A stretch of DNA of 64,000 nt from Fodinibius salicampi (GTDB lineage: Bacteria; Bacteroidota; Rhodothermia; Balneolales; Balneolaceae). Where the stretch lies: assembly GCF_039545095.1 (NCBI RefSeq), contig NZ_BAABRS010000001.1, positions 744,001-808,000 of the forward strand, in the 5' to 3' direction. Each line of letters opens with the position of its first letter. Positions within the stretch are counted from its first letter, which is position 1. The notes beneath the pieces were generated by a model. That model was not told where the DNA came from, ran no database searches, and was given only the letters and a program-made list of their open reading frames with translations. Position numbers and translations under genes: made by a program. Positions 1,721 through 28,477 of this stretch are shown piece after piece.

Positions 1721-1730
1721 AGTGATTCGT

Positions 1731-4237: not shown

Positions 4238-7488
<3,251 letters not shown>

Positions 7489-7604: not shown

Positions 7605-7716
7605 ATAAAGTTTTTATTCAATTTTTTTGCATTGCAGATGATACTTTTTCAAATTGGGTACGATTATCAAAATAATTACAAGAGCTCCTTTCATTCAAAC
7701 TATTAGTTAACGCTAC

Positions 7717-9354: not shown

Positions 9355-9386
9355 TCACGACCTTACAAGTCATTAGTTAGAAATAC

Positions 9387-10571: not shown

Positions 10572-10592
10572 GGAACTAAGAAAAATCCCGTT

Positions 10593-11774: not shown

Positions 11775-12545
11775 ATGCTTAACAGAACAATCTTCACCGT
11801 TACCGCTTTTATAATTTTCACCATATTTATTTCCGTTTCTGTTTCTTGTGCACAGGAACAGGAGATGCAACCGGAGGATACCGAAGTATGGGAACCTGTC
11901 CCCCCTAAAGTTGATCCCGGTTCCTTTACAAAATTGCCTCCGCCGTCTGATGCAGTTGTTCTGTTCGATGGAGCCAATTTTGACCAGTGGGAACATACAG
12001 ATGGAGGCGGTAAGCCGGAATGGAAAATTGAAGACGATCATATGACAGTGGTCGCGGGAACTGGTAGCATACAGACGAAAAAGGATTTTGGCTCAGTTCA
12101 GCTTCATATCGAATGGCGTTCTCCTGAAAAAATAGAAGGAGAAGGGCAGGGCCGGGGTAACAGCGGCGTATTTTTTCAAAACAGATATGAGGTACAGGTA
12201 CTGGATGCCTATGAAAATGAGACCTATGTAAATGGAATGGCCGGAAGTATTTACAAACAGCATATTCCAGAAGCAAATGTGGCCCGCAAACCCGGTGAAT
12301 GGCAGAGTTATGATATTGTATTTATCGCACCTGAGTTCTCTGATGACGGTAGCCTGGAGTCACCAGCCAGAGTTACGGTATTTTGGAATGGGGTACTCGT
12401 TCAGCATGACGTAGAATTGGAAGGTCCTACCGAATATATAGGTCACCCCAGCTATGAAGCCCATGGAGAAGCTCCTATAACGCTACAGGACCATAGTAAT
12501 CCGGTTAGCTTTAGGAATGTTTGGGTACGTGAACTGGACAAGTAA
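11775..12545 (+). CDS. Exported DUF1080 protein (3-keto-disaccharide hydrolase family)
   Basis: This 256-residue protein has a signal peptide or lipobox (hydrophobic 6-24, then SVSCAQ) and one DUF1080 jelly-roll domain from about residue 52. Family hallmarks are VVLFDGANFDQWEH, RGNSGVFFQNRYEVQVLD, GEWQSYDIVF and ALLDH-like ITLQDHSNPVSFRNVWVREL. DUF1080 proteins act on 3-keto-glycosides, cleaving the bond after C3 oxidation or handling the resulting enone. It stands alone between galT and the ECF sigma gene, with AT-rich DNA before it and a strong hairpin after it. Together with the Gfo/Idh and TIM-barrel genes 13-15 kb downstream it could form a complete pathway. The precise reaction (hydrolase, lyase or hydratase) cannot be read from sequence. 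Confidence 0.88.
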   Translation: MLNRTIFTVTAFIIFTIFISVSVSCAQEQEMQPEDTEVWEPVPPKVDPGSFTKLPPPSDAVVLFDGANFDQWEHTDGGGKPEWKIEDDHMTVVAGTGSIQTKKDFGSVQLHIEWRSPEKIEGEGQGRGNSGVFFQNRYEVQVLDAYENETYVNGMAGSIYKQHIPEANVARKPGEWQSYDIVFIAPEFSDDGSLESPARVTVFWNGVLVQHDVELEGPTEYIGHPSYEAHGEAPITLQDHSNPVSFRNVWVRELDK

Positions 12546-12593
12546 TTTTAAAATCACCTCTAAGTAATTCTATTTTAGATAGTCTTTGGCACT

Positions 12594-12629
12594 TTAGGCA
12601 CATTAAATTGGCTTATTTAATGTGCCTAA
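12594..12629 (+). terminator. Hairpin after DUF1080 gene
   Basis: TTAGGCACATTAAAT (12594-12608) and ATTTAATGTGCCTAA (12615-12629) form a perfect 15-base-pair stem with a 6-base loop, 49 bases after the DUF1080 stop. No long T-run follows, so termination may be weak. The site also lies about 90 bases before the ECF sigma start and could be regulatory. Confidence 0.6.
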
Positions 12630-12719
12630 GTTGTTGAAAGTGTTGAAAAATATTTCTATAGTTTTTCATAGGGGTTTAAAAACTGAAAGGGCATAAGTAA
12701 AATATAGGATTAGTATTTG

Positions 12720-13328
12720 ATGAAAGGTTACAGATCAGACGATAAATATGAAGATTGGTCCTGCCAAAGGGTTTGGGAACAACTCCAGGAAGGGGATCTG
12801 CAGGCTTTAAGGAGCCTTTTCCTGCGTCATCATAATCACTTGTTTGATTATGGAATGCAAATAACTTCTGATCGCTTTTTAGTCGAAGACTGTATCCATA
12901 ATCTTTTTTATCGAATTTGGGAAAGCAGGGAATCTTTAGGAGAAGTGATCTCAGTTAGATCATATCTATGGATATCTTTTAGGCGTGAACTTTTCAGATC
13001 CGCAAATAGTAATGAGCCTGAATTCCTGACCAATACCATCCAGAGCTATACTCCTGAGATAGGTTTTGAAACGGAAGAAATGATGACCGTAGAGGAAAGA
13101 AGGGGAGAATGGAATTCCTCTTTGCAAACCGCGATGAACAATTTATCGAACAGGCAACGGCAAGCTATTTATTTGAAATATTTTAATGGAATGGGATACG
13201 ATGAGATCCAGCAAATCATGTCCATCAATTACCAGACGGCTCGAAATTATATTTGCAGTGGAATTAAAGCTTTAAAAATTCATTTCCAACATATGGACAG
13301 AGAAAAAATCCCTGAACAATTTTCATGA
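12720..13328 (+). CDS. ECF RNA polymerase sigma factor (FecI/SusC-linked type)
   Basis: The 202 residues contain region 2 (about 20-85, with VEDCIHNLFYRIWESRE matching the core-binding helix) and region 4 (about 135-185, LSNRQRQAIYLKYFNGMGYDEIQQIM, helix-turn-helix). I chose ATG 12720; an in-frame TTG lies one codon earlier. It lies upstream of a FecR-type anti-sigma and an STN-bearing SusC, the standard trans-envelope signalling arrangement in Bacteroidota. When SusC binds its glycan the STN domain signals to FecR, which frees the sigma factor. Likely targets are the SusC/SusD genes themselves. Confidence 0.9.
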   Translation: MKGYRSDDKYEDWSCQRVWEQLQEGDLQALRSLFLRHHNHLFDYGMQITSDRFLVEDCIHNLFYRIWESRESLGEVISVRSYLWISFRRELFRSANSNEPEFLTNTIQSYTPEIGFETEEMMTVEERRGEWNSSLQTAMNNLSNRQRQAIYLKYFNGMGYDEIQQIMSINYQTARNYICSGIKALKIHFQHMDREKIPEQFS

Positions 13329-13578
13329 TATTTCATTTTCTTACATAAATATAAAGGGATATCTATTTTGCCTGTTTTAGTAATTAATAGAAAAGTTCGC
13401 ACAGCTCGTAAATTTCATTAAGTTTTATTTTTACTTTGAATTCATTATTTGGGTTAAAATGCCTTTTAATAGGCGTAAAGGGTGAAAGTTTTTTGAAAAA
13501 AATTTGAGTACAAATAGAAAAAATTTCTTCTTTATTAGCTAAGGATCAGTTACATTTATTTATTATTGCTTTTATAAA

Positions 13579-14643
13579 ATGAAAAAAACGATTTCCTCAG
13601 TTGAGGATTTACTTTCAGAACCATCATTCAGAAGATGGGCTATAGGAACTGCTTCAGAAGAAGAGGCAAAAAAATGGGATCAGTGGTGTCGCCGGAAAGA
13701 AATTAACAGGCGACACGCAAAGGAAGCTCAGGCAGAAATTTTGGGGTTGCAACCCGATGAAACCGATAATAACGTTAGTGCTGAAAATTCCTGGAACAAT
13801 TTAGTCCATAAATTATCACGGAATGGTAATCGATTGCATCGGCAGGTACGACCAATAGTCTGGGGGTACCGGACCGCTGTTTTATTTCTTGTTATCGCTA
13901 TCACAACTTTCATTGTGTACCAATTTAATTTAAATATCGTTGACCATACCGAGGTAAAAGAAATAGCTACTAAGAAGATCAGTACTGAATATGGAGAACA
14001 AAAAACACTGTCACTTACCGATGGTTCACAGATAACCCTGAATGCGAATTCTTCACTGAAATATCCCGAGAAGTGGCAGCAAAATTCAAAAGTAAAAGTT
14101 CAATTAACGGGCGAAGCCTATTTTTCTATTTCAACTGATGATTTTAGTAAGGGTTCAGAATTTGTGGTTTCTACACCGGATGGCAATGTAAATGTTACCG
14201 GAACCCGCTTTGTGGTAGAAACCGGTAAGGATAATACACAGGTAGTTTTGGAAAAAGGTTCCGTAAATATTGCGCAAGCCCAGAATGATAGTGGCGATAA
14301 TAATCAGGAAATGGTTGAACTGAAACCGAATCAACTTATCTCTTTTAGCCGTTTTGATAATGAAACCAATATCAGAAGAGTTAATCCTTTAATCTATACC
14401 TCCTGGAGAAATAAAGAATTGATACTCGAAAGTACACCCTTTTCAATGGTGGCATCCAGAATCAGTAAAACATATGGGGTAGAAATAAAGGCCTCTGAAA
14501 AACTTTTGAACCGGAAACTTTCCGGATCTATAAACTTAAAAAGTCTTGACAATGTGATGGAATCTCTCGCAGAAGTAATGAAGATAGAAGTCATAAAATC
14601 AGGACGCACTATTTATTTAAACAATAACCCTAAACAATCCTAA
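13579..14643 (+). CDS. FecR-family anti-sigma factor
   Basis: This 354-residue inner-membrane protein has a cytoplasmic N-terminus (about 1-95) that should bind the sigma factor, one membrane span (about 97-116), a periplasmic FecR domain (about 130-240, with STEYGEQKTLSLTDGSQI and VNVTGTRFVVE) and a C-terminal DUF4974-like domain (about 275-350, LESTPFSMVASRISKTYG and LSGSINLKSLDNVMESLAEV). It follows the sigma gene after a 250-base AT-rich gap, which suggests its own promoter or an mRNA leader; I see nothing else in that gap. It ends 63 bases before susC. Confidence 0.93.
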   Translation: MKKTISSVEDLLSEPSFRRWAIGTASEEEAKKWDQWCRRKEINRRHAKEAQAEILGLQPDETDNNVSAENSWNNLVHKLSRNGNRLHRQVRPIVWGYRTAVLFLVIAITTFIVYQFNLNIVDHTEVKEIATKKISTEYGEQKTLSLTDGSQITLNANSSLKYPEKWQQNSKVKVQLTGEAYFSISTDDFSKGSEFVVSTPDGNVNVTGTRFVVETGKDNTQVVLEKGSVNIAQAQNDSGDNNQEMVELKPNQLISFSRFDNETNIRRVNPLIYTSWRNKELILESTPFSMVASRISKTYGVEIKASEKLLNRKLSGSINLKSLDNVMESLAEVMKIEVIKSGRTIYLNNNPKQS

Positions 14644-14706
14644 ATGCTAAACATATATCAGTTACCAACTGTTGACTAATAACCTTCTAATCGAAGAACC
14701 TAACAT

Positions 14707-17700
14707 ATGAAAACTCTTAAATACATTATAGCAGTGCTCTTTATTTGCAGTGCTGTTGTACCATCCTTACAGGCTCAGGAAGTCCAGGGAATAAGTCAGG
14801 TACTCCTTACGGAGAATAATACTACTGACGACCGAAAGGCCTTACAAGCCGGTACTTCCTTAGACGACGCATTGAATATTATAGAAAATAGATACAACGT
14901 ATCTTTTCTCTATGAAGATCATGTAACAAATTCAAAGATGATATCTTCAGATATTGAGTTATCTGATAACGTTATCAGCGTTATACGGCAAACGTTAAAA
15001 GAACATGCTCTTGAACTACAGCAAATTGATGATCGTGCTTTTGGCATTACATCGGTAGAGGTAGTTGAAGATAATAACGAGCAGCCGGAAGCAACGGTAA
15101 CAGGAACAGTAACCGACAATAATGGAGACCCCTTACCCGGTGTTAACATTAGTATTCAGGGGACGACCCAGGGTACGACTACCGGACCTCAGGGGAGTTA
15201 TGAACTCGATGTTCCTTCCCTGGAAGAAACACTCGTATTTTCTTTTATCGGTTTCCAGCGCCAGGAAATTCCACTTAACGGACGTGAAACGCTCGATGTC
15301 CAAATGGTTCAGGAAACCTATTCCGGTGATGAACTGGTTGTTGTGGGTTATGGTACACAAAAACGTGAAACCTTAACCGGCTCGGTTAGTGCTGTTGGAG
15401 GAGATGAACTTCAAAAAACACCCGTTACCAATACCTCTAACTCTATAGGTGGTAAATTGCCTGGTGTGGTGACAATAACCAATAGTGGTGAGCCCGGTTA
15501 TGATGGTTCTACCATTCGTATCCGAGGCCAGCATACACTGGGTGATAACAGCCCGCTCATCGTCATTGACGGTGTTCCCAGCGATGCCGGATCACTTGAC
15601 CGGCTGAATCCTCGGGATATTGAGGATCTGACGGTATTGAAAGATGCTTCAGCAGCTATTTATGGATCCCAGGCTGCTAACGGGGTAATTCTGGTTCAAA
15701 CGAAGCGTGGAAGCGAGGGTGCTCCCGAGTTGACTATTGATTTCAACCAAGGTTTTAACCAGCCAACACGTATTCCTAATATGGCGGATGCCCCAACCTA
15801 TCTTACCATGTTGAATGAGATAGATCGGTACAGAGGAAATGAACGTCGATATTCTCAGGAAGAAATCCAGCGTCACGAAAATATTGAAGAGCAGGATCCT
15901 TGGTTATATCACGATACTGACTGGTTTGCCGAGGCATTAAAGCCTGTATCTCTTCAAACACAAGCAGATGTATCTATGGCTGGTGGTAGCGAAAACATGC
16001 AGTACCGTCTTTCATTAGGTGCACTTACTGAGGACGGTTACTATCAAAATAGTGCTACTCAGTATAATCAGTACCAGTTCCGAAGCAATATTGACGGACA
16101 GGTAAATGAGAATATTAATCTGCAGTTTGATGTGAGTGGTCGATTTGAAGACCGTAATTTCCCGACTCAACCAGCCGGAGCAACCTTCCGTATGCTGATG
16201 CGTGGAAAGCCACAGCTTCCTGCCTATTGGCCCAACGGATTACCAGGTCCTGATATTGAAAATGGTCAAAATCCTGTTGTTACGGGGACTGATGCTACTG
16301 GATACGATCAGGATGATCGGTATTATGTTAATACCAATCTCGTAGCAGATATTGAAATTCCCGGGGTTGAAGGCTTGGGTGTTCGCGGGACCTTCTCTTT
16401 TGACAAGGAATTGCGTGAACGTAAGCAATGGCTGACTCCATGGACGCTTTATGGCTTTGATGAAGCAGGCTACCGAGCTAATGGAGGAGATCCCGCACAA
16501 TACTTAACCGGCGCCTCACGACCATCCGGTCAGGAGCCCCAGTTAAGTCAGTGGAGTGAAGATAACTATAACGTTCTTGTCAACGCGGTAGTCGAATACC
16601 AGCGTGACTTTGAAAATCACTCTATTAGTGTTCTTGGAGGTGCTGAACGCCGACAGGCCAAAAATGCATATATGTATGCCTTCCGCCGCAATTATATTTC
16701 ACCAGCTATTGACCAGCTGTTTGCCGGTGGAGAAGAACAGCGCGCCAATGATGGGAGTGCCAGTAAAGAAATTTGGCAAAGTCTCTTTAGTCGTGTTAAC
16801 TACGATTACCAGAGCAAGTACTTAATTGAATTGGTAGGGCGTTATGACGGCTCCTACATTTTCCCTGAAGGCGACCGTTATGGATTCTTTCCCGCGGTTT
16901 CTGTTGGATGGAGGCTGACTGAAGAAGAATTCTTTAGAAATAATGTAGGCTTCTTTGATAACCTTAAAATTAGAGCTTCATGGGGACAGACCGGTAATGA
17001 CCGCGTAGCTCCTTATCAGTATCTTGCCAGTTATGGATTCGGAGGTGGTTACATCTTTGGTGGTGGTACAGAAGTACCCAGCTTATACCAAACACGGACC
17101 CCGAACCCAAATATTACCTGGGAGGTTGCTAACCAGTTCGATGTCGGACTTGAAGCTTCTATCTTGGATAACCGTCTCTCTTTCGAGGTCGATTACTTCG
17201 ACTATTTGAGAGAAGATATTCTCACGCAGAGAAATGCTTCGGTTCCTCAAACTTCAGGACTTAGTCTTCCGGAAGAAAATATAGGTAGAGTGTCAAGTTA
17301 CGGAGTTGATGGTTCTATTAATTGGAGCGACCAGGTCAATGAAGATTTCATTTATGACATCTCGTTGAACGCTGGATGGGCCACCAACGAAATAGAATTC
17401 TGGGATGAAGCTCCCGGAGCGCCCGAATATCAGCAATCTACCGGAAGTAAGATGAATACCGGTTTATTCTATGTTGCTGACGGTATCTTCCAAAACCAAG
17501 AAGAAGTGGATAGCCGTCCAAGCTGGCCCGGCGCCCGACCTGGAGATGTCATCTTTAAAGACATCGATGGTAACGGTGAGATTAATGCTGACGACCGTGT
17601 ACGGTCCGACCGCAATAGCATCCCTGAATGGACTGGAGGTATAACATTCTCCGCTTCCTATAAGCAGTTTGATTTCACTGCTTTCTTCCAGGGTGCTGCC

Positions 17701-18117
17701 GGTGCATCGCAGTACATTCAGACCGAATCAGGCGACTTTGGTAACTACTTTAACCAGTTTGCCGAAAAACGATGGAGACCCTCAGAGGATGACCACATGG
17801 TACAGCATCCCGACCAGGATCATGCGGAAGGCCCTCGTGCATTCCAGCGTACAGAGGAGTACTGGATATCCAATGGGAATACCTATTTCTTCAGAAATAC
17901 AGACTATATTCGACTTAAAACGTTGGAGGTAGGTTACAACATGCCTACAGAGCTGACCAGCAAGATTGGCATGCAGAATATGCGCATATACCTCAATGGA
18001 TTTAACCTGCTTACCTGGGACTCTTTCGGTCTTATGGATCCGGAGACACAGAACGGTGCAGGTTCCTACTATCCACAGAAAAGGGTATTCAATGCTGGAA
18101 TCTCTTTAACATTTTAA
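14707..18117 (+). CDS. SusC/RagA TonB-dependent transporter with STN domain
   Basis: This 1136-residue outer-membrane beta-barrel imports glycan fragments using TonB energy. After a signal peptide (1-23, SLQAQ) there is an STN signalling domain (about 50-118), a carboxypeptidase-regulatory-like domain (about 129-200, GTVTDNNGDPLPGVNISIQG), and the plug, which starts with the family wording DELVVVGYGTQKRETLTGSV and contains IRIRGQHTLGDNSPLIVIDG. The barrel ends with the usual aromatic C-terminus (AGISLTF). The STN domain links it to the adjacent FecR/ECF pair. It pairs with the SusD gene 21 bases downstream. The substrate is not visible from sequence; galactosides or glycosides are suggested by context. 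Confidence 0.95.
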   Translation: MKTLKYIIAVLFICSAVVPSLQAQEVQGISQVLLTENNTTDDRKALQAGTSLDDALNIIENRYNVSFLYEDHVTNSKMISSDIELSDNVISVIRQTLKEHALELQQIDDRAFGITSVEVVEDNNEQPEATVTGTVTDNNGDPLPGVNISIQGTTQGTTTGPQGSYELDVPSLEETLVFSFIGFQRQEIPLNGRETLDVQMVQETYSGDELVVVGYGTQKRETLTGSVSAVGGDELQKTPVTNTSNSIGGKLPGVVTITNSGEPGYDGSTIRIRGQHTLGDNSPLIVIDGVPSDAGSLDRLNPRDIEDLTVLKDASAAIYGSQAANGVILVQTKRGSEGAPELTIDFNQGFNQPTRIPNMADAPTYLTMLNEIDRYRGNERRYSQEEIQRHENIEEQDPWLYHDTDWFAEALKPVSLQTQADVSMAGGSENMQYRLSLGALTEDGYYQNSATQYNQYQFRSNIDGQVNENINLQFDVSGRFEDRNFPTQPAGATFRMLMRGKPQLPAYWPNGLPGPDIENGQNPVVTGTDATGYDQDDRYYVNTNLVADIEIPGVEGLGVRGTFSFDKELRERKQWLTPWTLYGFDEAGYRANGGDPAQYLTGASRPSGQEPQLSQWSEDNYNVLVNAVVEYQRDFENHSISVLGGAERRQAKNAYMYAFRRNYISPAIDQLFAGGEEQRANDGSASKEIWQSLFSRVNYDYQSKYLIELVGRYDGSYIFPEGDRYGFFPAVSVGWRLTEEEFFRNNVGFFDNLKIRASWGQTGNDRVAPYQYLASYGFGGGYIFGGGTEVPSLYQTRTPNPNITWEVANQFDVGLEASILDNRLSFEVDYFDYLREDILTQRNASVPQTSGLSLPEENIGRVSSYGVDGSINWSDQVNEDFIYDISLNAGWATNEIEFWDEAPGAPEYQQSTGSKMNTGLFYVADGIFQNQEEVDSRPSWPGARPGDVIFKDIDGNGEINADDRVRSDRNSIPEWTGGITFSASYKQFDFTAFFQGAAGASQYIQTESGDFGNYFNQFAEKRWRPSEDDHMVQHPDQDHAEGPRAFQRTEEYWISNGNTYFFRNTDYIRLKTLEVGYNMPTELTSKIGMQNMRIYLNGFNLLTWDSFGLMDPETQNGAGSYYPQKRVFNAGISLTF

Positions 18118-18138
18118 GTACTTAAATATTAGATAACT

Positions 18139-19941
18139 ATGAAAAACTTAACTTATATATCAACCTTACTTTGTGTGATGTTACTGGTCATAACGGCCTG
18201 TGATGTCCAGGAAGCGTTGGATCAAGAGCCGTTAGATCAGATTTCTGAGGAAGCGGTTTGGGATGATCCGGCACTTATTGAGGCCTATGTCAATGATATC
18301 TATCTTGGTATGGGCCACGGTCTGTACGAAGTGATGTTATCTTCGGCTGCAGATGAAACACATTTTACCCACGGATACGGTATTCCGGATATCGTGGAAT
18401 CAAATATTACTCCAAGTAACCGCGGAAGCTTTGCAAGTCGTGGAGACTATAACCACTGGGATTGGCCGGATCTCTACTTTCGCATCCAGCAGGTAAATAC
18501 CCTGCTGAGCGAAATAGAGGACTCAGCGATTGAAGACCAGGCAATTATTGACTCCTATGTTGGACAGGCTCACTTCCTGCGTGCCTATTTCTATCATAAT
18601 CTGCTACGCATTTACGGTGGCGTTCCTATCCTTACTGAACCAGCATCCCTGGATGATGAGGATTTGACCCCCGCGCGTAATAGTTTTGCGGAGACGGTAG
18701 ACTTTATTGTTCAGGAGGCTGAATTAGCTGCTGAACGTCTTCCCGTTACTCAAAGTGGAGATGATTTAGGACGCGCCAGTGGTGGTGCTGCTTTAGCACT
18801 TAAATCGCGTGTACTGCTGTATGCTGCCAGTGATCTCTTTCACCAGAATCCAAGCGGCATGGCTGTAACCGGTTATAGTGGAGCTGATCAGCAGCAGATG
18901 TGGCAGGATGCCAAAGATGCTGCTCAGGCAGTGATGGACTTGGGAGCTTATAACCTCTTTCGTCCGAATCCAGCCAGTGCTGAGGAAGCAAGCCAAAATT
19001 ATCATGAACTGTTTCTTACCGAAGCACCCAGTAACCCTGAAACCATTATGGAGCGTTATTTTATAGAAACACGCGATGATGGTCACAATCCGGGGCTGGA
19101 TAATGGGCCCAATGGCTATCACAACTGGGCTGGAAATACACCTCTTCAGAATATCGTAGACGACTACGAGATGGCCGATGGCTCTGAATTTGACTGGAGT
19201 AATCCGGAACATGCGGCTAATCCTTATGAAAACAGGGATCCTCGTTTAGAGGCCTCTATTCTTCATGATGGTTCTGATTGGGTTCAAAGACCTGCAGATG
19301 CCGTACAATATGACGGTGACAATATTGTCCAAACCTTTAAGCAGCTTGAGCTTCCAGACGGAAGTGTGGTACCGGGCGTAGATACCCGGGATGGTCCTAT
19401 TGAGGATTGGAACGGTAGTTACACCGGATATTACCTGAAAAAGTTTATCCGGGATGACATGCAGCATGGAACAAGCGGTAAACAGGAAGGATCCTGGATC
19501 TTTTTCCGATATACGGAAGTACTGCTTAACTATGTGGAAGCTTCTATTGAATTGGGCGACTACGCAGATGCGCGTCGGGAGCTCAACAAAATCCGTACAC
19601 GTGCAGGTATGCCGACTTATGATGCTACAGTAACCGGAGATGAGTTAATGGAAGAATACCGCAATGAAAAGCGTATTGAAATGGCCTTTGAAGAACAGCG
19701 CTATTTTGATGTGCGTCGCTGGATGATCGCTCCTGAGGAAATGAATGAAACAGCTAAAAATATCATCATTACCGCTGATGGAGAAGAGCAGGCTGACCGT
19801 AGTACCTATTCAAACTATACATACGAAGTTGGTACACAGGTACCGGGCAACAGAGCCTGGGAAGACAAGATGTACTTCCAGCCTATACCATTTGAGGAGA
19901 TGAACCGTAACGATGAGTTGGTTCAGAACCCCAATTATTAA
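18139..19941 (+). CDS. SusD/RagB glycan-binding lipoprotein
   Basis: This 600-residue surface lipoprotein should act as the lid of the upstream SusC channel. The lipobox cysteine is C21 (VITAC). SusD hallmarks include the N-terminal LDQEPLDQISEEAVW, the helical TPR core with QAHFLRAYFYHNLLRIYGGVP, and the C-terminal YTEVLLNYVEASIELG and NEKRIEMAFEEQRYFDVRRW. The gene follows susC closely and is followed by a strong terminator-like hairpin, which probably ends the sigma/FecR/SusCD transcription block. Confidence 0.95.
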   Translation: MKNLTYISTLLCVMLLVITACDVQEALDQEPLDQISEEAVWDDPALIEAYVNDIYLGMGHGLYEVMLSSAADETHFTHGYGIPDIVESNITPSNRGSFASRGDYNHWDWPDLYFRIQQVNTLLSEIEDSAIEDQAIIDSYVGQAHFLRAYFYHNLLRIYGGVPILTEPASLDDEDLTPARNSFAETVDFIVQEAELAAERLPVTQSGDDLGRASGGAALALKSRVLLYAASDLFHQNPSGMAVTGYSGADQQQMWQDAKDAAQAVMDLGAYNLFRPNPASAEEASQNYHELFLTEAPSNPETIMERYFIETRDDGHNPGLDNGPNGYHNWAGNTPLQNIVDDYEMADGSEFDWSNPEHAANPYENRDPRLEASILHDGSDWVQRPADAVQYDGDNIVQTFKQLELPDGSVVPGVDTRDGPIEDWNGSYTGYYLKKFIRDDMQHGTSGKQEGSWIFFRYTEVLLNYVEASIELGDYADARRELNKIRTRAGMPTYDATVTGDELMEEYRNEKRIEMAFEEQRYFDVRRWMIAPEEMNETAKNIIITADGEEQADRSTYSNYTYEVGTQVPGNRAWEDKMYFQPIPFEEMNRNDELVQNPNY

Positions 19942-19967
19942 TCTTAGTTAACGATTAGATATTATTT

Positions 19968-20037
19968 GCTTGTGTTATCCGGCTTGGAACAGGGATTTGC
20001 CTTTGGGCAGGTCCCCGTTCCCTCCGGAGGCACAAGC
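19968..20037 (+). terminator. Large hairpin after SusD gene
   Basis: GCTTGTG (19968-19974) pairs with CACAAGC (20031-20037). Inside, GGAACAGGGATTTGCC pairs with GGCAGGTCCCCGTTCC around a short TTTG loop, with a few G-U pairs and mismatches. An AT-rich run follows. It lies 27 bases past the SusD stop and separates SusCD from the FG-GAP gene. Confidence 0.7.
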
Positions 20038-20187
20038 ATTTAATATTTTAAGCATATACGTAGCACCTATTTTATTTCACTTCATTTTATTTTTTCAAGA
20101 ATAATAGCGCCATTTCTTGGTTTATATTATATATCAATCTTTTTATAACCCATACCGCATTTTTGTTCACGCTTCCATCCATACTCA

Positions 20188-23100
20188 ATGATTGTTAACC
20201 AACTAAAAAGAAATTTTACCTTTGTACTATTTACTGTAGTACTCTTTTCTGCTTGTACAGGCACTACCGATATACAGTGGAATGAGGAAGAGGGCTACCA
20301 ATGGGCGGAAGTATCTCCGGGATATTTTGGGAATACAGGATTTACAGAAATTGAACCCTCACAAACCGGAATCGATTTTACAAACCAGGCAAGTGTAGAG
20401 AACATAAAAGAGAACCGTAATTTTTTGAATGGATCGGGAGTTGCCTTGGCAGATGTTGATGGGGATGGGCTCATCGATATCTATTTTGCTCAGCTCGAAG
20501 GTTCCAATAAGCTCTACAAGAATTTAGGGGGTTGGGAATTTGAGGATATTACTGAAAAAGCCAATGTTGCTTTAGAAGACTATCATTCTACGGGAGTTGT
20601 TTTTGCAGACGTCAATGGCGATACCTATCCAGACCTATTGACAACCTCCCTCACAAAAAGGAACGAACTCTTTATCAATAATGGTGACGGGACCTTTAGC
20701 AAGAAGGAGAACAGCGGTCTGAGTTCATCGCAGGGTAGTAATACAATGGCACTGGCCGATATCGATAACGATGGCGATCTGGACCTTTACATCTCGAATT
20801 TCAAATTAAAATCGGCCCGAGATATTTATTCTGCGGAGGAATTGTCCACTGAAAATACCGTTCAAAAACAGGGGGATTCCCTTGTCGTGGTACCTCCATA
20901 CGACGAATACTACGGAATTATTGAGACGGAAGGACAGTCATATCGTAATGAATACGGAACTAAAGATGACCTTTATATCAATGAAGGTGACGGAACCTTT
21001 ATAAAAGCCGATGACCGCGAATACTTTTTTACATCCGATGGGGAGGAACGCGGTCTTTCCCGAGATTGGGGATTGACGGCGAAGTTCCATGATATTAATA
21101 ACGACGGTTATCCTGACCTGTATGTTGCCAATGATTTTTGGACCCCCGATCGTTTCTGGATTAACAGGGGAGACGGAACTTTTCGAATGATAGATAGAAA
21201 TACCATACGGAGCATGAGTTTTGCCTCCATGGGCGTAGATTTCTCCGATATCAACAGAAACGGACATACAGACTTTTTGATTACTGAAATGCTAAGTAGT
21301 GTACATCAAAGAAGGCTGCGTCAATATGCGGAACATCTGGATCCTATTGATGGACGCCCCCAGTACAATAGAAACTCCTTTTATTTTAACAGGGGAGACA
21401 ATACCTTTGCAGAAATATCCAACTACAGTCAGCTGCCAGCTTCCGAATGGTCGTGGGCTACTAATTTTTTAGATATAGATCTGGATGGTTACGAGGATGT
21501 TATTATTGCCACGGGCTATGGATATGATTACCAGGATATCGATACCCAAATCGAGTTAAATAAGAATAGCATGCAGGGCCGGTCGGGAGGAGCGGATGCC
21601 GTGAGCTATCCCCCTTTGCCACTGAGAAACAAGATGTACCAGAATAACAAGGACCTCACTTTTGATAATAAAAGTGAGGAATGGGGCTTTAAGGAACAGG
21701 ATATTTCTCTTGGACTTGCCATTGCAGATCTGGATAATGACGGTGATCCTGATTTTGTGACCAATCGTTTTAACGAGCAGGCGGCTCTTTATGAAAATAA
21801 CACCAATAAAGATAGAATAGCAGTTCGTTTAAAAGGTTCAGGGAATAATACGCATGCTGTTGGTGCGAAAGTTAAATTGGAAGGTGTTTCGGATATTGCC
21901 CAAACTAAGGAGATAGCGGCGGGCGGGAGCTACGTCTCTGGATCAGATTATCAGGTATTCTTCGCTGCTGAGGAGGGCACAAATCATACGTTGACCATAA
22001 CCTGGCCCGGCAACAATAAAATCTCGACTATAGATAGCGTTAAGGCAAACAGGATTTATGAAATTGATCAATCTGAGGTTCCTTCAGATAATATTTCGGA
22101 ACTGGAGAGAAAAATATCCGAAGATCCATTATTCACAGATGTTTCGGATGATATTAGTCATATCCACCATGAAGACCCATATAATGATTTCAATGTGCAG
22201 CCATTACTTCCCTTTAAGGTAAGTCAACTTGGGCCAGGAGTTGCATGGGTGGATTATGACGGAGATACAGATGATGATCTTTTAATCGGCTCCGGAAAAG
22301 GAGATGGGCTGGCACTATTACAGAATGAAGGAAATGGGGAATTTAATAGGGTTAGCAACAATCCTATAACAGAAACAGCATCCGGAGACCAAACATCCAT
22401 TATCAGCTGGAAGGAGTCCGATACAGTTCATCTAGTTGTCGGAAGCTCAAATTTTGAGCAGGGCGATCCCAATGTACCTTCCACTTTTCATTATGAACTG
22501 CAGGATGGAGAGGTGATCGGAGAATCAACTATTCCCGGAATACTATCGACTACAGGGCCGTTAGCAGCGGCCGACTATAACGGTGACGGTACCATAGACC
22601 TGTTTGTGGGTGGAAGGTTTAATCCCGGACGTTATCCTGAAGATGCTTCTTCAAGGCTTTTTGCTAATAATAATGGGGATTTCCAGCTGGATAAACGGAA
22701 CTCTCAAAAACTACTGGTATTCGGACTGGTAACCGGTGCCGTGTTCACGGATTACGACGGTGATAGCGATCCCGATCTTTTGATAAGCAGGGAATGGGAT
22801 AGCTTGGTTTTGTTTGAAAATAGAGACGGAGTCTTTCACGATGTAAGTGCCGAAGTTGGATTAGAATCGTATAAAGGATGGTGGAATGGAGTTGCCACCG
22901 GCGACTTTAATAATGATGGACGTCCCGACTTCATAGCGACGAATATTGGTCAAAACAGCGCTTATCAATTAAAGGATTCAAATCCATTGAAGTTATTCTA
23001 TGAGGATTTTAACAATAACGGGAAGCTGAACATCGTGGATGCCTACTATGAAGAAACGTTGGGAGGGTATGTACCCCGCCGAAAGCTTTATGAGCTTAAT

Positions 23101-23862
23101 TCGATACCCTCAGTTTTGCAATATGTTAATTCTCACGAAGAATACGCACAGTCATCTGTTGATCAAATTTTCGGCAAGAACTTTGATATTGTCTCCAGTA
23201 AAGAGATATCGACAATAAAGCACATGCTGTTTATTAACTCAGAAAATGGATTTGAAGCACATCCGCTCCCAGTGGAAGCTCAGCTATCAGCAGCATTTCA
23301 TCCAGCAATAGCCGACTTTGATAATGATGGGAACGAAGATGTTTTCCTGTCTCAAAACTTGTTCACCTTTCCAGGTACTATTCCCAGAATTGATGCCGGC
23401 CGGGGACTTCTACTAAAAGGGGATGGTACAGGAAACCTTAAACCTGTTCCAGGACAGGTAAGTGGTATAAAAGCGTACGAGGATCAGCGGGGAGCGGCGG
23501 TCGGAGATTTTAACATGGATGGCAAGATCGATCTTGTTGTCGGGCAGAACGAAGATAAAACTAAGCTATATCAAAACAATCAGTCTAAAAGTGGACTAAG
23601 AGTCAAATTAGTGGGACCTCCTGAGAATACAAGTGCTGTTGGATCAAAAGTTCGGGTCATTTATTCTGATAATACAAAAGGACCACTTAGAGAATTACAG
23701 GCAGGCTCAGGTTATTGGTCCCAAAGCAGCTATACACAGGTCTTGGGTTATGCTAAAGACGTTAAAGAACTGGAAATTCAATGGTACGATGGCAGGTCTA
23801 GCACAGTTGAAGTAAATCCCGACAAAAGGGAGCAAACTATTACATATTCTAAACTCTTTTAG
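20188..23862 (+). CDS. Giant FG-GAP/VCBS lipoprotein with two ASPIC-UnbV domains (CRTAC1-like)
   Basis: This 1224-residue exported protein has a lipobox at C23 (LFSAC). I count 14 calcium-loop repeats of the type D-x-[DN]-x-[DN]-G (for example DVDGDGLID, DIDNDGDLD, DFNNDGRPD), which build two integrin-like beta-propellers. Each propeller ends in an ASPIC/UnbV domain (near residue 550, VRLKGSGNNTHAVGAKV; near residue 1140, VKLVGPPENTSAVGSKV). Such proteins are common next to SusCD genes in marine Bacteroidota, but no biochemical role is established. A surface, calcium-dependent glycan- or protein-binding role is inference. The duplicated architecture suggests internal duplication. Confidence 0.9.
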   Translation: MIVNQLKRNFTFVLFTVVLFSACTGTTDIQWNEEEGYQWAEVSPGYFGNTGFTEIEPSQTGIDFTNQASVENIKENRNFLNGSGVALADVDGDGLIDIYFAQLEGSNKLYKNLGGWEFEDITEKANVALEDYHSTGVVFADVNGDTYPDLLTTSLTKRNELFINNGDGTFSKKENSGLSSSQGSNTMALADIDNDGDLDLYISNFKLKSARDIYSAEELSTENTVQKQGDSLVVVPPYDEYYGIIETEGQSYRNEYGTKDDLYINEGDGTFIKADDREYFFTSDGEERGLSRDWGLTAKFHDINNDGYPDLYVANDFWTPDRFWINRGDGTFRMIDRNTIRSMSFASMGVDFSDINRNGHTDFLITEMLSSVHQRRLRQYAEHLDPIDGRPQYNRNSFYFNRGDNTFAEISNYSQLPASEWSWATNFLDIDLDGYEDVIIATGYGYDYQDIDTQIELNKNSMQGRSGGADAVSYPPLPLRNKMYQNNKDLTFDNKSEEWGFKEQDISLGLAIADLDNDGDPDFVTNRFNEQAALYENNTNKDRIAVRLKGSGNNTHAVGAKVKLEGVSDIAQTKEIAAGGSYVSGSDYQVFFAAEEGTNHTLTITWPGNNKISTIDSVKANRIYEIDQSEVPSDNISELERKISEDPLFTDVSDDISHIHHEDPYNDFNVQPLLPFKVSQLGPGVAWVDYDGDTDDDLLIGSGKGDGLALLQNEGNGEFNRVSNNPITETASGDQTSIISWKESDTVHLVVGSSNFEQGDPNVPSTFHYELQDGEVIGESTIPGILSTTGPLAAADYNGDGTIDLFVGGRFNPGRYPEDASSRLFANNNGDFQLDKRNSQKLLVFGLVTGAVFTDYDGDSDPDLLISREWDSLVLFENRDGVFHDVSAEVGLESYKGWWNGVATGDFNNDGRPDFIATNIGQNSAYQLKDSNPLKLFYEDFNNNGKLNIVDAYYEETLGGYVPRRKLYELNSIPSVLQYVNSHEEYAQSSVDQIFGKNFDIVSSKEISTIKHMLFINSENGFEAHPLPVEAQLSAAFHPAIADFDNDGNEDVFLSQNLFTFPGTIPRIDAGRGLLLKGDGTGNLKPVPGQVSGIKAYEDQRGAAVGDFNMDGKIDLVVGQNEDKTKLYQNNQSKSGLRVKLVGPPENTSAVGSKVRVIYSDNTKGPLRELQAGSGYWSQSSYTQVLGYAKDVKELEIQWYDGRSSTVEVNPDKREQTITYSKLF

Positions 23863-23938
23863 ATTGCTTATTCATATAATCTTTAGTAAGATAATTTTTA
23901 TTAATTACTGTTTGAACTAATAAATATTTCATTTTCTT

Positions 23939-24931
23939 ATGTTTGAAGCGCGATACGTAACGTTGTTTTTCTTTTTGATGTTTCTTTCTGGCAATGCATT
24001 TTGTCAGGATTTCACCCCTTATGAAGAGCAAATACCCAATTCTGAACAGTCCATTCAAATGGTCCCGATTGAGGGCGGAACCTTTTTAATGGGAAGTCCG
24101 AAGGGTGAAGAAGGACGTGATCCCGATGAAGGTCCACAAAAAAAGGTAAAAGTGGATTCCTTCTGGATGGGAAAATATGAAATAACGTGGCAGCAATATG
24201 ATCTGTTTGTTAAAGAAAAAATTCAGAATGTACGCAATAAGGTTTCCAGTGCAGAGGGAGAAGTTGAAATTGAAGCCGATGCAGTGTCTTTACCTACGCC
24301 CCCTTATATCGATATGAGTTTTGGTATGGGCCGGGAGGGCTTTCCGGCTATTAATATGACAAATTATGCCGCCATAATGTATGCCAAATGGTTAACGGCA
24401 CAGACTGGTAATTTTTATCGTCTACCAACCGAAGCTGAATGGGAATACGCCTGTCGTGCCGGTAATAATACGGCTTATTCTTTCGGAGATAATCCTGAAG
24501 CTATTGGAACCTATGCCTGGCATAAAGGAAATAGTGAAAGAAAATATCATCAAATTGGCTCCAAGGAACCCAATGGCTGGGGACTTTATGATATGCAAGG
24601 AAATGTGGCCGAGTGGACGATGGATCAGTACAAAGAAGATTATTTTGAATTACTGGAAGGAAGTCCGGCAGATAATCCTTGGTTTAAACCCGAAACACTT
24701 TATCCCAGGTCGGTCAGGGGAGGGAGCTGGAAGGACGATCCCGAAGAATTGCGATGCGCGGAACGGGAAGGGTCAGAAGCCAGATGGAAACAACGTGATC
24801 CTCAGCTTCCCCGTAGCCTCTGGTGGCTCACTGATGCACCTCATGTGGGATTCCGCTTGATTCGACCTGAAAATCCACCTTCTGAAGAGGAAATGGAGAA
24901 ATATTGGATCGAGGCAATGGAAGATATTTAA
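23939..24931 (+). CDS. Exported SUMF1/FGE-fold protein, probably not a sulfatase activator
   Basis: The 330 residues start with a signal peptide (about 1-22, GNAFCQ) and contain a formylglycine-generating-enzyme fold: VPIEGGTFLMGSPKGEEG, KYEITWQQYDLFV, YRLPTEAEWEYACRAG, GLYDMQGNVAEWTMDQY, SVRGGSWKDDPEELRCAERE and HVGFRLIRPE. In true FGE two cysteines sit near GGS and before RCA; here the GGSW is followed by KDD and only the RCA cysteine remains. There is no sulfatase gene in the window. A binding or structural role, as for GldJ/GldK-type relatives, is more likely. It sits 76 bases after the FG-GAP gene. Confidence 0.85.
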   Translation: MFEARYVTLFFFLMFLSGNAFCQDFTPYEEQIPNSEQSIQMVPIEGGTFLMGSPKGEEGRDPDEGPQKKVKVDSFWMGKYEITWQQYDLFVKEKIQNVRNKVSSAEGEVEIEADAVSLPTPPYIDMSFGMGREGFPAINMTNYAAIMYAKWLTAQTGNFYRLPTEAEWEYACRAGNNTAYSFGDNPEAIGTYAWHKGNSERKYHQIGSKEPNGWGLYDMQGNVAEWTMDQYKEDYFELLEGSPADNPWFKPETLYPRSVRGGSWKDDPEELRCAEREGSEARWKQRDPQLPRSLWWLTDAPHVGFRLIRPENPPSEEEMEKYWIEAMEDI

Positions 24932-25003
24932 TAATGTAACTATTTGGGATTAATAGAATTACAGATATAAATTAATGTAACCTAAAAGTAAAATATACCG
25001 ACT

Positions 25004-26341
25004 ATGGCTCAACAAAACGATGACACAAAAAATGGAATGTCCCGCAAAGATTTTGTCAGAAATGCTTCTCTGGCAGCTGGAGGCGTATTCTTAAGTACCT
25101 TTCCGGCAATGGGAGGACAGCGAAATAAAAGTAATGAAATGCTAAAAATTGCTCTTATCGGCTGTGGCGGACGTGGTACCGGTGCCGCTAACCAGGCGTT
25201 AACCGCAGATAGCGGTAATCAATTAGTTGCTATGGCTGATGCTTTTAGAGATCGTCTTGATGATTGCTATGAGACGCTGTCTAAAAGGTATGGAGATACG
25301 GAACAGCTTAATGTTCCGGAAGACCACAAGTTTACCGGCTTTGATGCCTATAAAAAGGCCATTCAGCTGGCAGATGTAGTAATTTTAGCCACACCTCCCG
25401 GTTTTCGTCCTGTTCACTTTGAGGAAGCAGTTAATGCTGACAAGCATGTGTTCATGGAAAAACCACTGGCTACGGACGTTCCCGGCATACATAAGATTTT
25501 AGAGGCCGGAAAACTGGCTGAGCAAAAAAATCTTAATGTAGTAGTAGGACTGCAGCGCCACTATCAAAACAGCTACCGGGAAGTTTCCAAGCGCGTACAT
25601 GGCGGAGAAATTGGTAGCATTGTCGGTGGACAGGTCTACTGGAATAGTGACGGTGTTTGGGTCCGTCCTCGCGAAGATGGCCAGACCGAGATGGAGTATC
25701 AGATGCGCAACTGGTACTATTTTAACTGGCTTTGCGGAGATCACATTCTGGAGCAGCATATCCACAATATCGATGTTGCCAACTGGATGATCGGTGAGTA
25801 TCCGGCATCAGCTCAGGGCATGGGTGGACGTGAAGTGCGTAACGGTAAAGAGCACGGTCAAATATTTGATCACCATTTTGTTGAGTTTACATATCCCAGT
25901 GGTGCCGTTATTGCCAGTCAGTGTCGTCACCAGGAGGGCACTATGAACCGGGTTTCTGAATTCTTCCAGACAACCGAGGGGACTATTGATACAGCTGGTG
26001 ATAGGGGAATTATTACCAGCTGGGATGGGGAAACCTTGTATGACCACAATGCTGATGGAGATATCAATCCCTATCAACAGGAGCATAATGAGCTCTTTGC
26101 AGCTATTCGAAATGGCGAGGTCATCAATGATACTGAACGGAGTGCCAAGAGTACACTTACGGCAATTATGGGTCGTATGGCAACCTATTCCGGAGATGTG
26201 ATTAGCTGGGAAGATGCCATGAACGGTTCTAAGAAGCTTGTGCCGGATGCACTTTCCTGGGATTCCGAGCCTCCCGTTACTCCTGACGAGAATGGCAATT
26301 ATCCTGTGCCGGTTCCCGGAGTAACAGATGTATTGACCTAA
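25004..26341 (+). CDS. Exported Gfo/Idh/MocA-family oxidoreductase
   Basis: This 445-residue NAD(P)-dependent sugar oxidoreductase carries a Tat-like N-terminus (SRKDFVRNASLAAGG, RK instead of RR, residues 13-27). The Rossmann fold starts at IALIGCGGRGTG (49-60), EKP (152-154) is the classic Gfo/Idh motif, and GDHILEQHIHNIDVANWM holds the catalytic-region residues H247, H252, H254 and D257. Relatives oxidise C3 of glycosides or reduce 3-keto products in the 3-keto-glycoside pathway. The gene is followed by a TIM-barrel isomerase-like gene, a common pairing. An alternative is inositol or other sugar metabolism. Confidence 0.9.
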   Translation: MAQQNDDTKNGMSRKDFVRNASLAAGGVFLSTFPAMGGQRNKSNEMLKIALIGCGGRGTGAANQALTADSGNQLVAMADAFRDRLDDCYETLSKRYGDTEQLNVPEDHKFTGFDAYKKAIQLADVVILATPPGFRPVHFEEAVNADKHVFMEKPLATDVPGIHKILEAGKLAEQKNLNVVVGLQRHYQNSYREVSKRVHGGEIGSIVGGQVYWNSDGVWVRPREDGQTEMEYQMRNWYYFNWLCGDHILEQHIHNIDVANWMIGEYPASAQGMGGREVRNGKEHGQIFDHHFVEFTYPSGAVIASQCRHQEGTMNRVSEFFQTTEGTIDTAGDRGIITSWDGETLYDHNADGDINPYQQEHNELFAAIRNGEVINDTERSAKSTLTAIMGRMATYSGDVISWEDAMNGSKKLVPDALSWDSEPPVTPDENGNYPVPVPGVTDVLT

Positions 26342-26365
26342 GGAGCCTTTCTAATCTTATATTAT

Positions 26366-26398
26366 GTTACTGTCCGTTTATTGATAACGGACAGTGAC
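26366..26398 (+). terminator. Hairpin between Gfo/Idh and TIM-barrel genes
   Basis: GTTACTGTCCGTT (26366-26378) pairs with AACGGACAGTGAC (26386-26398) around a 7-base loop; the inner 10 base pairs are perfect and one G-U pair lies in the outer part. TATTTTC follows. It may end or attenuate the transcript before the TIM-barrel gene, 49 bases downstream. Confidence 0.6.
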
Positions 26399-26446
26399 TA
26401 TTTTCTATCTCCTTTTAGAATTCTAACCATTAGTAAAAAATAAATT

Positions 26447-27373
26447 ATGGACAGGAAAAATTTCTTGAAAAATGGCCTCTTAGCCGGATCTGTCATGGCA
26501 ACAGGGGTAGGGGCAAGTTCTCTTGCACAAACGGAAACGATTGAAGGCAGGCCTGAAGGTAAGAATGATTTTAATCTGAATTATGCTCCTCATTTCGGAA
26601 TGTTCCGGCATCATGCAGGTGACGACCTTCTTGACCAGTTAACGTTTATGGCCGAAAGAGGATTCACCGCACTAGAAGATAACGGGCTAATGGGACGTAA
26701 TCCCGAAATGCAGAAAAAGATTGGAGAACGACTAGCCAAACTGGATATGCAAATGGGTGTTTTTGTCATCGACAAAGGCGGCAATGGTGCCAATACGTTT
26801 GCATCAGATAACGAGGAACATACTGAAATCTTTGTAAATGCCTGCAAAGAGGCTGTGGAAGTGGCTAAGCGGGTCAATGCGAAGTGGATGACCGTAGTAC
26901 CCGGAAATTTTGAGCGGCGGCTTCCTATGGATATTCAAACCAGCAACGTTATTGAAACGCTGCGTCGGGGAGCGGAAATACTTGAACCTCACGGACTGGT
27001 AATGGTACTTGAACCGCTAAGTGATACGCCTGATTTGTATCTGCGTACCTCAGCCCAGACTCATATGATATGTAAGGCTGTAAACAGTCCTTCTTGTAAG
27101 ATTCTGTATGACATATATCACATGCAGAAAAATGAAGGGAATCTTATCAGAAATATTGACTTGTGCTGGGATGAAATTGCCTACTTTCAACAGGGCGACA
27201 ATCCAGGACGGAATGAACCTGGTACCGGAGAAATTAACTTTAAAAACGTCTTTAAGCATATTCATGACAAAGGCTTCGACGGTATTATGGGAATGGAACA
27301 CGGTAATTCAATGGATGGCAGGGAAGGCGAGCAGGCGGTTATCGATGCTTACCTTGAAGCCGATTCTTTTTAA
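26447..27373 (+). CDS. Exported xylose-isomerase-like TIM barrel (hydroxypyruvate isomerase family)
   Basis: This 308-residue protein has a Tat-like leader (DRKNFLKNGLLAGS, then a hydrophobic run ending SLAQT near residue 29). The barrel shows hydroxypyruvate-isomerase-like motifs: VLEPLSD (E189), LYDIYHMQKNEG (D222, H225), GDNPGRNEPGTGEINF (251-265) and GMEHGNS (E284), giving a full set of metal ligands. Exported members near Gfo/Idh and DUF1080 genes are candidates for the sugar-enone hydratase or isomerase step of the 3-keto-glycoside pathway. True hydroxypyruvate isomerase is less likely because this one is exported. Confidence 0.88.
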   Translation: MDRKNFLKNGLLAGSVMATGVGASSLAQTETIEGRPEGKNDFNLNYAPHFGMFRHHAGDDLLDQLTFMAERGFTALEDNGLMGRNPEMQKKIGERLAKLDMQMGVFVIDKGGNGANTFASDNEEHTEIFVNACKEAVEVAKRVNAKWMTVVPGNFERRLPMDIQTSNVIETLRRGAEILEPHGLVMVLEPLSDTPDLYLRTSAQTHMICKAVNSPSCKILYDIYHMQKNEGNLIRNIDLCWDEIAYFQQGDNPGRNEPGTGEINFKNVFKHIHDKGFDGIMGMEHGNSMDGREGEQAVIDAYLEADSF

Positions 27374-27430: not shown

Positions 27431-28477
27431 TTATTCAGAATCAAGAATCAATCGGTTGAAATGAGCCGATTGATTTATCTTGATTCCTTCTTCTGTTTGA
27501 TGTTGATATTCAATACGTCCCTCTACACTACATTTTTGATTGATTAGAGATATTCCTTCCTCAGCATCCATTACGCTGAGGGCTGAAGCATAGCTGTCCG
27601 CTGTAATACCATCGGGCGCTATGACCGTAACCATGCTTTGTGTCGTTAATCCCATACCGCTTTTGGGATTAATAATATGTGAATAACGCTCGCCATTGAT
27701 ATATACATACTGAAACAAATCTCCGGAGGTTGCAACTGCCCGGTTGGATAATTGAAGCGTTATATTATTGGAAGTTCCTTCTTTAGTATGGACAGGTATC
27801 CGGATGATCCATCCATTTTTGCCCGGAGGCGGATCACCGACTCGGATATCGCCACCGGCATCAATGAGGGCCGAATGGATATTTTGGTTACCTAAAATAC
27901 GAAGTACTTCATCCGTTGTATACCCCTTAGCGATCGCCCCCAGATCCAACTGCATATTTTCTTGTTCCAAGGCAATTGAGGTGGTGGAGGAATCCAAGGC
28001 TACATTCTGATACCCGATACGGGTACTGAGGTCTTTCAAAACCTTTCGATCTGGTAATTTTGGTTCCTCCATTTGGCGTATTTCTCTCCAAAGCCTAACG
28101 AATGGACCAATAGTAATATCAAAGGCCCCATTCGTTTCTTCTGCAACCTCCTGTGATTTACTTACTACGGTAAAAAGGGTAGAGTCAACCGGAATATATT
28201 TATCCGATCCAGAGCGTTCGGATAGCTTATTGAGATTACTATTGGGATCATAATCGCTTAATATGGTATTTAACTGCTCAATCCTTTTAAAAGCCAAGTC
28301 TGCAGCTGATTGTGCTGTTGAATCATCGGGCGCATAAAAAATGAGAGTAAAAAGTGTTCCCATATGCTGCTCCTTAAAAGTATATCGGCTTAACTCTTGG
28401 GCGTATGATAAATTGACAAAACTTGTTGTACACCATAATATTACAGCTAATGATATGATGTATTTTTTAAAGTTCAT
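27431..28477 (-). CDS. apbE: FAD:protein FMN transferase (ApbE)
   Basis: ApbE attaches FMN to threonine residues of Nqr/Rnf-type proteins outside the cytoplasm. The 348 residues have a signal peptide (1-26, LSYAQ) and the family motifs MGTLFTLIFYA, GAFDITIGPFVRLWR, LDLGAIAKGYTTDEV, SALIDAGGDIRVG, RYSHIINPKSG and the metal-site TADSYASAL. Length is normal. It converges with the TIM-barrel gene and is followed upstream by tadA on the same strand after 58 bases. No Nqr or Rnf target gene lies in the window. Confidence 0.95.
   Translation of the reverse strand: MNFKKYIISLAVILWCTTSFVNLSYAQELSRYTFKEQHMGTLFTLIFYAPDDSTAQSAADLAFKRIEQLNTILSDYDPNSNLNKLSERSGSDKYIPVDSTLFTVVSKSQEVAEETNGAFDITIGPFVRLWREIRQMEEPKLPDRKVLKDLSTRIGYQNVALDSSTTSIALEQENMQLDLGAIAKGYTTDEVLRILGNQNIHSALIDAGGDIRVGDPPPGKNGWIIRIPVHTKEGTSNNITLQLSNRAVATSGDLFQYVYINGERYSHIINPKSGMGLTTQSMVTVIAPDGITADSYASALSVMDAEEGISLINQKCSVEGRIEYQHQTEEGIKINQSAHFNRLILDSE

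Follow-up and report, generated by a model that had tools for sequence, protein, structure and literature searches.

Gene content of the locus

The window analyzed here is a stretch of 64,000 nucleotides from the genome of Fodinibius salicampi (3.94 Mb, 98.5% complete), whose closest named relatives found were Balneolaceae. Between positions 11775 and 27373, nine genes code for a DUF1080 protein, an ECF sigma factor and a FecR anti-sigma, a SusC-SusD pair, an FG-GAP lipoprotein, a SUMF1-like protein (SUMF), a Gfo/Idh/MocA oxidoreductase (GFO), and a xylose-isomerase-like TIM barrel (TIM) (Table 1). A preliminary description of this DNA had interpreted them as a complete system for the cleavage of glycosides through 3-keto intermediates outside the cytoplasm. 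All nine open reading frames are intact, at the positions first assigned to them and with clear Pfam assignments; the inventory had missed the bordering gene at 27431 to 28477, which encodes ApbE.

Table 1. Genes of the candidate glycoside-oxidizing locus and its context (window positions)
Feature	Coordinates	Strand	Family evidence
DUF1080/3-keto-disaccharide hydrolase family protein, predicted exported (P0001)	11775..12545	+	PF06439 149.3 bits
ECF sigma factor (P0002)	12717..13328	+	Sigma70_r4_2; TIGR02985 68.6 bits, below cut-off
FecR anti-sigma (P0003)	13579..14643	+	FecR + FecR_C
SusC-type TonB-dependent transporter, N-terminal signaling extension (P0004)	14707..18117	+	SusC/RagA TIGR04056 915 bits
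SusD-type lipoprotein (P0005)	18139..19941	+	SusD_RagB 196 bits
FG-GAP/ASPIC lipoprotein, probable SusCD companion (P0006)	20188..23862	+	FG-GAP_3, UnbV_ASPIC
SUMF1-like protein SUMF, predicted exported (P0007)	23939..24931	+	FGE-sulfatase PF03781 155 bits
Gfo/Idh/MocA oxidoreductase GFO, probably exported (P0008)	25004..26341	+	PF01408 (GFO_IDH_MocA) 46 bits
Xylose-isomerase-like TIM barrel TIM, probably exported (P0009)	26447..27373	+	AP_endonuc_2 PF01261 113 bits
ApbE, FAD:protein FMN transferase, predicted exported (P0010), convergent with set	27431..28477	-	PF02424 240 bits
Context: GH2 beta-galactosidase, SSS symporter, galactokinase, GalT	4351..11636	+	GH2 = Bga2A NF052611 1125 bits; GalK/GalT named from sequence

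SUMF, GFO, and TIM form the conserved core of the module

The genome encodes 14 DUF1080 domains, 23 Gfo genes, and 12 TIM-barrel genes. Because such copy numbers make adjacency alone weak evidence, neighborhoods were compared across relatives. With GFO as the anchor, the comparison covered 80 named loci, each including flanks of at most 10 kb, plus 20 loci from close relatives; all of their open reading frames were clustered before gene order was read. The hosts of the 80 loci belong to the Balneolaeota, several Bacteroidota classes, and the Marinimicrobia. SUMF was the constant neighbor of GFO, being present in 62 of the 80 loci and in a co-directional run with GFO in 61, followed by TIM (40 loci, co-directional run in 36) and DUF1080 (14 loci, co-directional run in 12). 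Sixty-four SUMF1-family genes were seen versus ~1.1 expected in 1.44 Mb from the density in the F. salicampi genome, which has three such genes; expected counts, here and below, come from gene density alone, and loci that are related do not count as independent samples. The order found in the window, SusC-SusD-FGGAP-SUMF-GFO-TIM, was found again in two Algoriphagus genomes (L174 and L180). The conserved core of the module is SUMF-GFO-TIM, and SUMF is its closest partner. The pairing that defines a 3-keto-glycoside pathway, an oxidoreductase conserved together with a cleaving or hydrating enzyme, is present in the GFO-TIM operons. The description of the set as complete is not supported, since DUF1080 is in just 12 of the 80 GFO operons.

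P0001 is a clear member of the DUF1080 family (gathering score, 26.8 bits), and its closest solved structure is 4qhz (E value, 1.6e-73). Among 59 relatives, a DUF1080 orthologue was found in 10 of the 12 genomes with GFO versus 5 of the 47 without it (Fisher p ~3e-6). Downstream of TIM in the window, ApbE on the other strand is followed by a deaminase and a phosphoribosyltransferase. Two genus mates have SusC-SusD-TIM-GFO-FGGAP together (L071 and L072); at the chromosomal site that corresponds to the window, beside the same deaminase, these two have a mutarotase, SUMF, ApbE, and the orthologue of DUF1080 (L217 and L218). A third has GFO-SUMF-DUF1080-mutarotase together (L070), SusC-SusD-TIM elsewhere (L227), and ApbE at the deaminase site (L240). 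Three genus mates have the DUF1080 orthologue next to SUMF or close by (L070, L217, and L218), and in L224 the orthologue directly precedes sigma-FecR-SusC-SusD, as in the window. Since the orthologue co-occurs with GFO across genomes and recurs in these arrangements, DUF1080 belongs functionally with the set, outside its constant core. The limits of the operon containing the DUF1080 gene are not fixed by promoter and terminator scans around 11400 to 14800, which revealed no excess over the shuffled expectation.

The preliminary description had pointed to lactose and galactose genes next to the set. Elsewhere, GalK was near GFO in only 6 of the 80 loci, mostly from one clade, and DgoK, MR_MLE, and KDPG aldolase genes were near GFO in none of the 80. 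The module thus lacks a conserved association with these genes, and lactose is at best a possible substrate. In several Flavobacteriia (L118, L122, L123, L130, and L131), GFO forms a run with a sulfatase, a SUMF variant lengthened by a large insertion, and a galactokinase.

The SusCD pair, its signaling layer, and the FG-GAP protein

The N-terminal extension of SusC (14707 to 15096) gave a weak match to FecR_C (20.4 bits, below the cut-off). A genus-mate SusC, 85% identical, aligns only from residue 131 of P0004 on, indicating that the sigma/FecR/STN layer is lineage specific; the switch appears to have been gained or lost recently. The SusD orthologue, also 85% identical, stands with SusC and TIM in L071. 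The genes for a surface signaling system proper to the locus are present, as proposed; the layer is not a general property of the module. The FG-GAP gene was located beside SusCD in seven loci (L139, L146, L152, L174, L178, L180, and L181). It follows SusCD, and its product was accordingly rejected as a dedicated part of 3-keto metabolism; it looks like a general SusCD companion. Of the two proteins regarded as new accessory parts, SUMF, in the GFO operon at 61 of 80 loci, is thus the one closely tied to the module.

Fold, export, and cofactor of GFO and TIM

In GFO, residues E152-K153-P154, H254/D257, and the GCGGRGTG motif are invariant or nearly so in the family, as are, without exception, TIM residues E189, D222, H225, Q248, and E284. 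AF2 models of the two proteins had pLDDT values of 86 and 88, respectively. The top VIA matches of GFO (Z ~34-35, 2.5-2.8 A, 324-333 residues) included NAD-dependent sulfoquinovosidases, levoglucosan 3-dehydrogenase, and DgpA. Those of TIM included 3ngf (Z 28.9), 1k77 (YgbM; Z 27.9), and the 3-keto-glucoside 4-epimerase YcjR (Z 26.4), with Hyi-like proteins among the best, and Foldseek added AtHYD (8ro4). Known proteins related to the TIM fold catalyze elimination and hydration of 3-keto-glycosides (PMC10628242 and PMC7676230).

A twin arginine (RR) is present in the signal sequences of 99 of 105 GFO-family and 37 of 46 TIM-cluster proteins, and the genome encodes the Tat translocase component TatC (207 bits). 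From these signals, GFO and TIM are probably extracytosolic, and export of GFO by the Tat system is likely. The activity outside the cytoplasm that had been proposed is thus favored by the families as a whole, with a reservation for the window's own copies, whose signals have RK in place of RR (SRKDF and DRKNF).

Asp79 of GFO, located after the second strand, is invariant in the family. In Rossmann folds, an Asp at this position favors NAD over NADP, which suggests that the cofactor of GFO is NAD. The preliminary description had raised the question of the cofactor of an NAD-type enzyme in the periplasm. A precedent is glucose-fructose oxidoreductase (GFOR), which is exported by Tat loaded with NADP and whose export requires the cofactor to be bound (Halbig 1999, as cited in PMC7317946); ApbE at the locus provides a new clue.

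A candidate extracytosolic glycoside-oxidizing and -cleaving system

Gene context in relatives bears on the chemistry. Four loci (L150, L155, L163, and L169) have a run of GMC, gluconate-2-dh-3, DUF1080, SUMF, GFO, and TIM genes, and L160 has the same run without SUMF. In L228 and L229, TIM comes directly after a GMC plus gluconate-2-dh-3 pair in genomes devoid of a close GFO match. The GMC and Gluconate_2-dh3 families were confirmed by Pfam on representatives. The subunits of the periplasmic lactose 3-dehydrogenase, which acts with DUF1080, are ones that we take to belong to these two Pfam families. Because the gene types are the same, a link of the module to 3-keto-sugar chemistry is supported by context.

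We therefore favor, with a probability of about 0.55, the reading that the locus encodes an extracytosolic system oxidizing and cleaving glycosides. We infer the substrate, the C3 site, the order of the steps, the tight binding of the cofactor, and its fate after reduction as follows. SusCD and the FG-GAP lipoprotein would bind an oligoglycoside and import it into the periplasm, under the control of the lineage-specific sigma/FecR switch. GFO, which Tat would export already folded and loaded with its nicotinamide cofactor, would oxidize a ring hydroxyl, most likely at C3. Next, TIM and DUF1080 would cleave and hydrate or isomerize the 3-keto sugar to products that can be taken up, and the reduced cofactor would give its electrons either back to the 3-keto sugar once this is released or to FMN installed by ApbE.

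Several observations weigh against this reading. GFO scored 48 bits, over 191 of 487 positions, with NF058561, the model of the BT2158 family of glycoside 3-dehydrogenases (cut-off, 750 bits). It is thus not a member of that characterized family. The genome's best match to NF058561 (516 bits; C3:237562-238854, L225:9505-10899) is encoded on its own, at a distance from DUF1080 and TIM genes. The models nearest to TIM were curated hydroxypyruvate isomerase (122.6 bits for a cut-off of 353) and 2-oxo-tetronate isomerase (110.6 bits for a cut-off of 325), both below the cut-off. In the comparison of folds, some inositol dehydrogenases, among them a scyllo-inositol dehydrogenase, were ~1 Z lower than the top matches of GFO and GFOR ~3 Z lower (Z ~32); such matches within Gfo/Idh/MocA fix neither the oxidized carbon nor the reaction. 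DUF1080 is missing from most module loci. Finally, the RK signals of GFO and TIM count here, since lysine substitution in Tat signals is poorly tolerated in the systems studied (PMC7317946).

A possible flavin-dependent extension through SUMF and ApbE

SUMF was rejected as a formylglycine-generating enzyme (FGE), since the active-site Cys pair following GGS is missing: GGSYMCHRSYC of human FGE aligns with GGSWKDE.. of P0007, and this stretch contains no conserved Cys. P0010 was identified as an ApbE from its Pfam match and from an N-terminal signal-like sequence read directly. No other ApbE is encoded in the genome, and searches for the substrate families FMN_bind and DUF3570 found neither. 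ApbE genes were present in 10 of the 80 GFO loci versus ~0.2-0.4 expected; they are co-directional with SUMF/GFO in L157, L168, L172, L175, and L181 and lie between GFO and TIM in L175. In the ApbE tree, the enzymes of the module form one group of 18 and a separate pair (L157 and L175), so ApbE probably joined the module in two recruitments.

Exported proteins receive FMN from ApbE at [S/T]GA[S/T]-like sites (PMC8238504). A loop conserved in the SUMF family follows the pattern D-[AG]-x-[ST]-x-[AP]-[ST]-x-P-Y; 29 of 71 family members show it as D..[STA]G[AG]T, a motif present in only 3 of 1398 unclassified neighboring open reading frames. In P0007, the loop D114-AVSLPT120 is a candidate ApbE site, with a degenerate SLPT in place of [S/T]GA[S/T]. 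The association of ApbE with exported Gfo enzymes is seen in two settings or more. In the second, a Tat-type family with an invariant P-I-G-G-[AS]-T-W motif, at most ~37% identical to the P0008 cluster, has its own ApbE clade of nine further genes of relatives, seven of which adjoin it (L242, L243, and L248 to L252). We know of no report of ApbE accompanying exported Gfo enzymes. Among open-licence papers, we found none linking Gfo/Idh/MocA with SUMF1 or ApbE in such a role, including in the literature on oxidoreductive sulfoquinovosidases, and the terms Gfo, FGE, and sulfatase do not occur in the main text of PMC8238504. In L246 and L247, loci related to those of the second Gfo family, a KDPG-aldolase-like gene follows ApbE.

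These features raise the possibility that ApbE places FMN on SUMF, which would take electrons from the nicotinamide cofactor of GFO outside the cytoplasm and let the oxidation feed respiration rather than stay redox neutral. This extension of the favored reading is conceivable, although we regard it as rather doubtful, on several grounds. The GA form of the motif occurs in 30 SUMF family proteins, none of which (0/30) has a neighboring ApbE, whereas 13 of 30 SUMF proteins with the xP[ST] form, the form also found in the window, do have one; the relation is the inverse of that expected. Neighboring ApbE genes are mostly convergent in the Balneolaeota, and SGAT-like motifs are not stringent (PMC8238504). 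Either another ApbE would serve the canonical form and a dedicated ApbE the xP form, or the resemblance would be structural. Slightly more tentative is the specific proposal that SUMF is a new class of covalently flavinylated protein reoxidizing the nicotinamide of GFO and that enzymes of the second Gfo family may themselves bear an ApbE-installed flavin, at their invariant GG[AS]T. If true, flavinylated SUMF or Gfo would explain some of the "orphan" ApbE genes; a survey in eLife (2021) counted 670 genomes with ApbE but without a known substrate (PMC8238504), and the pairing of SUMF with ApbE points to a possible new class of ApbE substrates.

Alternative functions of GFO

An exported aldose 1-dehydrogenase or GFOR-like enzyme would offer a different fate for galactose, converted to galactonolactone and, as galactonate, taken up via GntP into the Dgo pathway. 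Divergent galactonate genes for GntP, DgoK, and an enolase-superfamily dehydratase are indeed located upstream in the window (350 to 3874), and Foldseek placed GFOR and aldose-aldose oxidoreductase, two Gfo proteins that leave the cytoplasm via Tat (PMC4628093), high among the matches of GFO. However, this reading was demoted by the 80 other loci, in which DgoK, dehydratase, and KDPG aldolase genes are never near GFO. No lactonase was found in the locus, several C3 enzymes outscored GFOR in the VIA alignment, and oxidation at C1 leaves the linkage to TIM, DUF1080, and GMC unexplained; we consider it unlikely. Just upstream of the galactonate genes lies a KDPG-aldolase-like gene (L103:18553-19000).

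GFO might instead act alone as a redox-neutral, NAD-dependent glycosidase similar to oxidoreductive sulfoquinovosidases, leaving TIM and SUMF for a later or separate step. The NAD-dependent glycoside hydrolases 8qc2, 8qc5, and 8qc8 (Z ~35) are among its best VIA matches, but they are tied with plain dehydrogenases at a sequence identity of 16-17%, and the strong operon link to TIM suggests a shared pathway, making this option quite improbable. Finally, sugar genes with no relation to each other might lie together by chance or loosely in a genome as glycan-rich as this one. The high copy numbers could be invoked for this view, but it is hardly credible, being contradicted by operon-level conservation in 80 loci from several classes, which places the set beyond chance neighbors as first proposed.

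Comparison with known systems

Cleavage of glycosides via 3-keto intermediates is a recently recognized alternative to hydrolases. By its families, the module appears to work like the pathways known for this chemistry. It has three enzyme superfamilies in common with Bacteroides BT2156-BT2159, which comprise a TIM barrel, DUF1080, and two Gfo/Idh/MocA proteins. Unlike in that system, GFO falls outside the BT2158 model, a SUMF1-like protein and ApbE are added, and the core is SUMF-GFO-TIM. With the LacABC plus DUF1080 system of Caulobacter and Pedobacter, the module would share a periplasmic location, and it shares a DUF1080 partner and, in relatives, adjoining GMC/gluconate-2-dh-3 genes; C3 oxidation by LacABC relies on a membrane-bound three-component dehydrogenase, whereas the oxidoreductase of the window is of the nicotinamide type (PMC9007349). 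Elsewhere in the F. salicampi genome, a LacABC-type 3-keto set (L092; C1:1098001-1118000) comprises two GMC plus gluconate-2-dh-3 pairs, DUF1080, a TIM barrel, a levoglucosan-dehydrogenase-like Gfo, and GHL10.

Agrobacterium OGE/AtHYD and the levoglucosan system LgdA-B1-B2-C have in common with the module the combination of a Gfo with a TIM-barrel eliminase or hydratase; their sequences are distant, and excerpts of the corresponding papers mention neither export, SUMF, nor ApbE for them (PMC10628242 and PMC7676230). Zymomonas GFOR and the Caulobacter aldose-aldose oxidoreductase also belong to Gfo/Idh/MocA, with a fold like that of GFO, and cross the membrane via Tat with a cofactor of their own, but they act on free aldoses at C1, and no TIM/SUMF operon is known for them. 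As in the NQR/RNF, DUF2271, and DUF3570 systems, an extracytosolic ApbE neighbors a candidate substrate with a [S/T]GA[S/T]-like motif; in contrast to these systems, the motif of the window SUMF is degenerate (PMC8238504). A widespread, exported nicotinamide version of the pathway raises the question of how the enzyme works without a free NAD pool, and the presence of a flavin-attaching ApbE in the set points to a possible outlet for the electrons of the exported oxidoreductase.

Other features of the window

No RNA families or tRNAs were found in the window. At 57420 to 61275, a gene for a cytochrome c/DUF7133-like protein lies beside one for a DUF1080 + PA14 + DUF6797 protein, and a SusD gene is located nearby at 61539 to 63110, making this another possible DUF1080 system in the window.

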